Shown here piece by piece: positions 37,551-62,822 of a stretch of DNA of 64,000 nucleotides. The DNA is taken from positions 124,001 through 188,000 of the forward strand of contig JACUTU010000005.1 of the NCBI GenBank assembly GCA_014859685.1. Direction: 5' to 3'. The notes under the pieces are model-generated. The model made no database searches, was not told where the DNA came from, and was given only the letters and a program-made list of their open reading frames with translations. Within the stretch, counting starts at the first letter, position 1. Each line of letters begins with the position of its first letter. The DNA is from Sulfurospirillum sp. Its GTDB lineage: Bacteria > Campylobacterota > Campylobacteria > Campylobacterales > Sulfurospirillaceae. The translations under genes were made by a program, and so were the position numbers.

Positions 37551-37797
37551 CCTCAAAGATGCTTTACAAGAAGCAGAGATCGAGATAGAAGAGATCGCTA
37601 TGCAGCTCGCAGATATGCTTGGTGCGGCCCTCTATTTTGCGGGTGTTAAAAAAGAAAATCTTCCAAAAGCCGTAGATGCTTACCTAGCAGGCATTGATGA
37701 AACTCTTGGTGATGATGATGATGCGGAAATGGGATTTGAAGAAGTTGTTCAGGTAATCGAAGATTTACAAAAAAAACATCCAAAACTTTTTAATTAG
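37534..37797 (+). CDS. Small acidic helical protein, unknown function
   Basis: 87 residues, strongly acidic with a LGDDDDAEMGFEE stretch, and otherwise helical (IEIEEIAMQLADMLGAALYF). No signal peptide or known domain. It overlaps the DHH gene by 17 bases in another frame, so it is probably translated with it. Its stop codon lies in the arm of the TACATGTA stem-loop. Confidence 0.65.
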   Translation: MQQDPSLKDALQEAEIEIEEIAMQLADMLGAALYFAGVKKENLPKAVDAYLAGIDETLGDDDDAEMGFEEVVQVIEDLQKKHPKLFN

Positions 37798-37827
37798 TTT
37801 ACATGTAAGCTCTTACATGTAAACTAA
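37794..37827. terminator. Stem-loop built from two inverted TACATGTA copies
   Basis: Arms TTAGTTTACATGTAA and TTACATGTAAACTAA pair 15 of 15 around a 4-base loop. It contains the stop of the 87-residue gene and runs into repeat copy B. It lies between convergent genes, where a two-way terminator is expected, but no T-run follows. Confidence 0.6.
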
Positions 37828-53207: not shown

Positions 53208-53450
53208 TTATTGCTTTCCTAAAACAATTTCAACTTCAAGCATATCGATGCTTTTGTTTGAATGTGAAGTTATCTTCACATCATCGACGCTTGTATATTT
53301 TTTAATAACAGCGATGAGATCATTGCGTAAATCATCCAAATAAGGCAACTTACAATCTACTCTCTCATGTGCTAGCATGATGGTCAAACGATCCTTAGCT
53401 ATTCCTGCACTACTCTGTTTTTTTCCAAAAATTCGCTCAAAAAAACTCAT
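53208..53450 (-). CDS. minE: Cell division topological factor MinE
   Basis: 80 residues. The N-terminal MinD-contact segment includes [16 protein letters not shown], and the dimer domain ends [12 protein letters not shown]. Drives MinD oscillation. It overlaps minD by 4 bases. minC is not in the window. Confidence 0.93.
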
Positions 53451-54256
53451 CTAAAAATTCCTTTAAGTGCACCAAAAAGACCTTTTTTTGCTTTTATATT
53501 TACAAATTCGATCTCTTCTCCAAGAATTCTTCGTGCGATCCTGCGATAACTTTCAGCTGCTTGGACATTTTCTTTGTAAATGACAGGAACGCCTGTATTT
53601 GTAGCGGTTATAATATGTTCATCATCAGGAACCACGCCGATAAGTGGTAAAGCTAAAATATTTAAAACATCATCGATACTGAGCATATTGCCCGCTTCTA
53701 CCATTTCTGGTTTGATACGGTTGATGATGATGTGTTTTTCTACCTCTTCACCATTTTTTGCTTTTTCACTTTTTGCATCAATGATACCTATAACGCGATC
53801 GGCGTCTCTAACCGAACTTACATCAGGTGTTGAAACGATTAAAGCACGGTCTGCCAAAAAGATAGAATGCTCAAATCCGCTCTCGATGCCAGCTGGTGAG
53901 TCGATCAAAACAATATCAAAACTTTCCTTGAGTGCCGTTAGTAACTCTTTAACTTTGTCTCTTTGTAAAATATCTTTATCTTTTGTTTGGCTTGCGGGTA
54001 AAAAGTAGAGATTTTTCGCTTTTTTATCATTAATCAATGCTTGTGATAAATTGCATCTACCCTCCATCACATCAACAACATCATAAACGATTCGATTTTC
54101 TAAACCCAAAATCATATCGAGATTTCGCAAACCTATATCAAAATCTATTGCAACTACTTTTTGTCCGAGATTTGCCAAACCTACTGCTAGATTTGCTGTG
54201 GTTGTGGATTTGCCCACACCACCTTTTCCAGAAGTTACCGTGATAATTGTACCCAT
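53447..54256 (-). CDS. minD: Septum-site determining ATPase MinD
   Basis: 269 residues. Deviant Walker [20 protein letters not shown] (10-28), [28 protein letters not shown], and a C-terminal amphipathic membrane helix ([13 protein letters not shown]). With MinE it keeps the division ring at mid-cell. It follows ilvC. Confidence 0.97.
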
Positions 54257-54287
54257 GAGAAATGTAACCTTTATAGATTATTTTGTG

Positions 54288-54320
54288 TACATGTAAGCGA
54301 TTATATATCGCTTACATGTA
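54288..54320. terminator. Second stem-loop built from two inverted TACATGTA copies
   Basis: Arms TACATGTAAGCGAT and ATCGCTTACATGTA pair 14 of 14 around TATAT, in the 72-base gap between ilvC (ends 54329) and minD (starts 54256), both on the minus strand. No T-run follows. Confidence 0.55.
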
Positions 54321-54328
54321 AGAGTTAG

Positions 54329-55399
<1,071 letters not shown>

Positions 55400-62765: not shown

Positions 62766-62786
62766 GACTTACATGTAAGCTTCAAA

Positions 62787-62822
62787 GGGAGTGACACGAT
62801 TATCGTGTCACTCCCTTTTTTT
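62787..62822. terminator. Strong bidirectional terminator between rpsR and lon
   Basis: Arms GGGAGTGACACGAT and ATCGTGTCACTCCC pair 14 of 14 around a single base (effective loop 3 or more), followed by seven T on the plus strand; the opposite strand has TTTGAAG. A TACATGTA copy lies just before it at 62770. The T-run touches the lon stop codon. Confidence 0.9.

Follow-up and report, generated by a model that had tools for sequence, protein, structure and literature searches.

The gap between ilvC and minD in the 64,000-nt stretch of DNA that we analyzed (the window) holds a hairpin with one copy of the palindromic word TACATGTA in each arm. This locus raises the question of what is maintained here, the structure or the word, and of what maintains the word wherever else it occurs; to our knowledge, no function has been agreed on for iterated words such as HIP1. 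The features of the window that bear on this question are the following.

53447–54256, minus strand: minD (ORF; NCBIfam TIGR01968 over cut-off)
54288–54301 and 54307–54320 (arms) with loop 54302–54306, no strand: inverted pair of TACATGTA (repeat search, folding, simulation)
54288–54295, no strand: left copy of TACATGTA (word search)
54313–54320, no strand: right copy of TACATGTA (word search)
54329–55387, minus strand: ilvC, ketol-acid reductoisomerase (ORF; NCBIfam TIGR00465 over cut-off)
37794–37827, no strand: the other word pair of the window, a 15-bp perfect stem with a 4-nt loop between convergent ORFs
260–63152, no strand: span of all 43 window copies of TACATGTA (word search; 36 inside ORFs according to a crude ORF caller)

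The hairpin between ilvC and minD

We found that the arms of the hairpin are 100% complementary over 14 nt and lie 5 nt apart, and that the hairpin is positioned 8 nt past the ilvC stop and 31 nt ahead of the minD ORF start (both genes are on the minus strand; minE was likewise confirmed by NCBIfam, alongside ilvC and minD). The window contains just three perfect stems of 12 bp or longer (loop 3–10), two of them being word pairs, and stems of at least 14 bp appeared in 0 of 20 first-order Markov simulations. The 33-nt hairpin has a folding energy of –18.9 kcal/mol (z –7.5), and 0 of 200 shuffles were as good. The original prediction of an exact 14-bp stem with the word in each arm is borne out as a structure beyond chance, and comparing both pairs confirmed that its flanks are unlike those of the 37.8-kb pair. 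A search of Rfam with positions 53900–54700 gave no match up to an E value of 1. The window's longest perfect stem (62784–62818; 16 bp, 3-nt loop) is G+C-richer (AAAGGGAGTGACACG...) and is not a word pair; a lone TACATGTA at 62770 precedes it by 6 nt.

We compared 30 ilvC loci, with the minD start visible in 29, and found that the gap is at most 21 nt in 12 of the 29 and at least 57 nt in the other 17. A stem-loop is predicted in all 17 long gaps, mostly from unrelated sequence; the energies are lower than those of first-order simulations by 1.8 to 6.8 standard deviations. Because every long gap holds a stem-loop and most of these are built from unrelated sequence, it is the stem that the gap keeps, and the word pair is one means of building it. 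Two words build the gap stem in the genome under study (G000) and in G012, G015 and G021. In G002, the partner of the one remaining word is degraded: one outer arm has decayed but the inner stem is intact. Across these five sequences we found compensatory change at each of the three flank base pairs that adjoin the word, and pairing holds for 94.5% of cells.

One explanation, for the local hairpin only, is intrinsic termination of transcription after ilvC and before minD, which would suit a strong stem placed so soon after the ilvC stop and the presence of a stem-loop in 17 of 17 long gaps. We consider this improbable, as there is no U-tract beside the hairpin on either strand, so that the stem followed by a U-tract that marks an intrinsic terminator is not seen. 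The coding strand right after the stem reads CACAAAATAATC, and no terminator-like site was called at the hairpin. Moreover, ilvC and minD are probably co-transcribed, because at most 21 nt separate them in 12 of 29 genomes.

Word pairs are also in excess elsewhere in the genome. Pairs with a gap of 9–17 nt number 14 in G000 as compared to 5.3 expected, and 26 in G003 as compared to 6.2 expected (the pair statistics cover 29 of 29 pairs in G000 and 51 of 54 in G003). At least 4 inner base pairs are formed by 5 pairs in G000, where 1.5 are expected from re-dealt flanks (P 0.012), and by 22 pairs in G003, where 10.4 are expected (0 of 5000 shuffles). Several good hairpins lie within ~10 nt of ORF ends, some of them between convergent ORFs, and many other close word pairs sit inside ORFs. 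Over-represented inverted pairs able to form stem-loops, a property of DNA uptake sequences, are therefore present here.

Taken together, these data establish that the hairpin is real and that its pairing is selected. It had been proposed that the flanks pair too and that selection acts on the structure as well as on the word, with compensatory flank changes in relatives as the place to look; such changes were found in G002, G012, G015 and G021, inner flanks match better than re-dealt ones, and unpaired arms at the same place in relatives were not seen. The accompanying suggestion that the structure was newly made by inversion gained no support, since the flanks at one place are not the same in different species, and about a thousand single copies of the word stand elsewhere. 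The main interest of the hairpin is as a way in to the iterated word.

Some observations concern the surroundings of ilvC. In G018 (contig C24, L013), tandem ~45-nt units fill the stretch between the ilvC stop and the end of the contig. In G005 (L074), a hairpin (ATCGGGT...ACCCGAT) is located downstream of ilvC; minD was not noted in the 160 nt read after ilvC there, and the gene order may differ. In several genomes of genus g2 (e.g. L011, L020, L026), a copy of the word coincides with the ilvC ribosome-binding site or lies close to it, and the G013 variant is TACACGTA.

A palindrome iterated within one bacterial family

In the window, TACATGTA is present in 43 copies where 0.87 are expected, and in the genome it is present in 1110 copies as compared to 38 of the reversed-word control; it is a palindrome iterated far above expectation genome-wide, the property by which HIP words are recognized. 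All 8 letters matter, as 43 of the 56 occurrences of ACATGT in the window are flanked by T and A. None of the window copies inside ORFs (36 of 43) is in the frame TAC-ATG-TAN, and in 100 kb of G003, 29 of 60 copies are intergenic (both by a crude ORF caller). The word is enriched in 36 relatives of the same family, with up to 1727 copies, the exception being G005 (28 vs 25), and 23 genomes of the order's other families have 1–23 copies each. TACATGTA is thus a palindrome with about a thousand copies per genome in one bacterial family, that of Sulfurimonas and its neighbours, for which Sulfurimonadaceae is probably the right name. Among the papers listed in literature searches on Sulfurimonas with uptake, natural transformation, palindromes and methylomes, there was no report of iterated TACATGTA, and we make no claim that it is unpublished.

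In G005, TATCATGA is used instead, with 1209 copies as compared to 43 for its control and to 50–295 in the other 43 genomes. In 100 kb of G005, 32 of 51 copies of TATCATGA read TATCATGAT, and the palindrome TATCATGATA accounts for 8. CATG is common to TACATGTA and TATCATGA, so that the lineages have dialects sharing a core, as uptake sequences do. No replacement CATG word like that of G005 was found in samples of 20–140 kb from G014, G025, G015, G008, G018, G016, G013, G022 and G033. Among CATG words, TACATGTA itself predominates in 8 of the 9 low-count genomes sampled, and it is not enriched in the G014 sample; in G022 and G036, the ACATGT context is looser. Further words, for the most part runs such as AAAAGAG, likewise occur in excess in the low-count samples, and in a 60-kb sample of G022 (L255, L256, L091) overlapping 9-mers around CGAACCGACACAAGAT are strongly over-represented and are perhaps another repeat family.

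The word might be bound, in a way that depends on adenine methylation, by a protein that organizes the chromosome or acts in regulation, or it might be a methylation-sensitive landmark of the nucleoid. Its palindromic form, its genome-wide occurrence, its position mostly inside ORFs in the window and its link to a methyltransferase are all compatible with such a site; however, the word was swapped for TATCATGA in one species and lost in others that thrive, which argues against an essential role, and we give this explanation little credence.

An orphan methyltransferase and the upkeep of word sites

Using one query, we found a D12-class methyltransferase of ~330 aa (PF02086), in several subtypes, in 33 of 44 family genomes. 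The family assignment is D12 class N6-adenine; searches of NCBIfam and PDB gave no specificity (0 matches in the PDB sequence search with the methyltransferase). In genus g2, all 13 clade-A copies in the tree lie next to one and the same Tat-signal gene (judged by eye from ORF starts), which is Transglut_core by Pfam in one genome, and a CheY-like gene is on the enzyme's other side in 8 of 13. No restriction-enzyme gene was recognized beside the clade-A copies in the 1.5-kb flanks that we read. The clade-A copy of G003 was placed by size and identity only and is absent from the subtype tree. In G013, G016, G022, G036, G033 and G065, the CheY and Tat genes are present with no methyltransferase between them (empty site). 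Two candidate discriminators were set aside: PF02086 presence alone is too coarse, as it mixes subtypes, and subtype and locus needed separating; ComEC was found in 41 of 44 genomes, whether or not the enzyme is present.

In the genome under study, the enzyme typical of its genus is represented by a remnant, which lies next to the gene (asparaginase-like by our reading) that neighbours the enzyme in G001 and G002. The genome's own copy is located elsewhere and belongs to another subtype, also found in low-count genomes such as G025 and G014; both observations speak against the link between enzyme and word. The nearest named genome for its methyltransferase is Sulfurimonas sp. KA11 (98% identity). 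Close relatives of this subtype (about 50–79% identity; L156–L224) occur in Bacteroidota, Treponema, Bacilli and others, and the subtype therefore moves between phyla.

We found that word density is 424–576/Mb in 14 g2 genomes with the enzyme as compared to 42–323/Mb in 6 with the empty site (Mann-Whitney p 5e-5, with kinship ignored and some sizes rounded); this two-group comparison left out G028, G060, G062 and G063, for which the locus state was not established, and all other genera. The six empty-site genomes fall in at least three branches of the ilvC+minD tree, the inner supports of which are modest. Word counts predicted in advance held for G065 (low count), G064 and G066, were marginal for G061 (424/Mb as compared to a bound of 450) and failed for G062 and G063, and there was no clear advance prediction for G060. 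High counts were found in three genomes in which no enzyme of this kind was found, G028 (99% complete, ~500/Mb), G062 (~542/Mb) and G006 (~416/Mb). Thus, the methyltransferase goes with the word in g2, by density and also by site (below), and G028, G062 and G006 stand against a strict link between enzyme and word.

To follow individual sites, we compared the 20-kb neighbourhoods of ilvC in 17 genomes of g2, the best-sampled genus. Among 11 enzyme-bearing genomes, words were intact in 917 of 1020 comparisons (90%) as compared to 33–35% for neighbouring 8-mers, whereas the words of enzyme-bearing genomes were intact in five empty-site genomes in only 51 of 379 (13%), as compared to 18% for neighbours; these counts are overlapping pairwise comparisons of ~129 query sites in one 20-kb neighbourhood per genome and are not independent. 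With 10 enzyme-bearing genomes instead of 11, 744 of 830 were intact as compared to 46 of 351 in empty-site genomes, and by site family 120 of 155 cells were intact as compared to 6 of 64, both counts using sites chosen in enzyme-bearing genomes. The reverse view removes such bias and agrees: when the words of empty-site genomes were traced instead, 51 of 90 comparisons found them intact in enzyme-bearing genomes (16% for neighbours), and 4 of 25 did so in other empty-site genomes (17% for neighbours).

Three control palindromes did not split in this way (TTTGCAAA, 22 of 113 as compared to 14 of 65; AAAATTTT, 248 of 425 as compared to 117 of 226; TTTTAAAA, 368 of 739 as compared to 179 of 378); a fourth control word, ATGTACAT, did split (20 of 65 as compared to 0 of 33), at few sites. 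Changes in decayed sites are commonest at the outer letters (37, then 20, 16 and 13). In G022 and G036, which have another enzyme subtype, the word is kept 2–3 times above neighbours, and in G013, G016 and G033, its upkeep is at or below neighbours. G028, with a high count and no enzyme found, is intermediate (36 of 54 intact), as would be expected of recent enzyme loss. These comparisons within one genus show that individual word sites are kept well above their surroundings between species with the enzyme and are mostly broken where its usual locus lacks the gene. The loss of most copies in enzyme-less relatives suggests that the word acts as a tag, and that this tag counts only where methylation of it is possible.

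These data bear on the explanation that TACATGTA is a plain DNA uptake sequence of the Neisseria/Haemophilus type, bound by pilin regardless of methylation, with only an indirect link to the enzyme. Copy number and spacing resemble those of DNA uptake sequences, G005 has a dialect, inverted pairs lie near gene ends, and the high counts of G028, G062 and G006 without a found enzyme are as such a sequence would allow. However, site decay follows the empty enzyme locus in at least three branches although ComEC is kept, and we regard the plain uptake sequence as unlikely.

Possible functions and known systems

For HIP1 (GCGATCGC) and the alternate HIPs of cyanobacteria, passages of PMC4390886 describe an association with orphan methyltransferases and a proposed mismatch-repair ratchet. 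The present word could be a HIP1-like by-product of methyl-directed mismatch repair, as it is likewise an iterated palindrome associated with an orphan methyltransferase (in the terms of those passages), but the model needs MutS/MutL, and MutL was over cut-off in 0 of 44 family genomes as compared to 11 of 14 controls. Weak MutL matches were found in 27 of the 44, mostly covering the first 80 of 555 positions. Because MutL is below cut-off throughout the 44 family genomes, the methyl-directed mismatch-repair ratchet does not fit, and we judge it very unlikely. With the ratchet set aside, selection or biased recombination on the methylated word remains.

We propose that the orphan enzyme would methylate the word, with its CATG core, and that the methylated word would serve as a self-tag. 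DNA with intact methylated tags would be preferentially taken up and recombined during natural transformation, restoring broken sites; without the enzyme the tag would go unread and decay, and word pairs at gene ends would be tags reused as transcript stem-loops. Both the methylation of the word by this enzyme and its role in uptake are thus conjectural steps. For the explanation as a whole, a stem-making iterated palindrome whose upkeep tracks the enzyme and which acts as a methylated self-tag, with uptake as the likeliest function of the tag, we see an even prospect. Its strict form, in which about a thousand methylated copies of TACATGTA mark a cell's own DNA, only marked DNA enters, enzyme loss leads to word loss and one species switched to TATCATGA, is put forward tentatively. 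We are similarly guarded in ranking a methylation-read uptake tag as the likeliest single function and the plain uptake sequence as the next.

Related species that differ in whether this locus carries the methyltransferase gene act as natural knock-outs, in which word sites survive or decay, and the question of what maintains iterated words becomes testable in bacteria without detectable MutL.

TACATGTA resembles HIP1 and the alternate HIPs, as described in PMC4390886, in being a palindrome with hundreds to thousands of copies in a genome and in going, within g2, with an orphan methyltransferase. It differs in being an A+T-rich CATG word from another phylum in which no MutL was found, and in its site-by-site loss where the enzyme locus is empty. 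The tags of Neisseriaceae are iterated, have dialects and form inverted pairs at gene ends, as described in parts of PMC3630211 and PMC2397512, and TACATGTA shares with the DUS and USS of Neisseriaceae and Pasteurellaceae, on the account in those parts, its copy number, its lineage dialects with a common core and its inverted pairs near gene ends. In contrast to DUS and USS, TACATGTA is a palindrome, its upkeep tracks a methyltransferase and its part in uptake is presumed. According to a section of PMC10046745, C. jejuni takes in DNA only if CtsM has methylated it at RAATTY, and in the terms of that section the two systems have in common the phylum, an adenine methyltransferase and a palindromic motif that uptake needs in its methylated form, uptake again being presumed for ours. 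TACATGTA is longer than RAATTY and strongly iterated, and the enzymes found here are at most candidate counterparts of CtsM. If the word is an uptake tag, DUS-type tags and the methylation-gated uptake of Campylobacter would be joined in one system.
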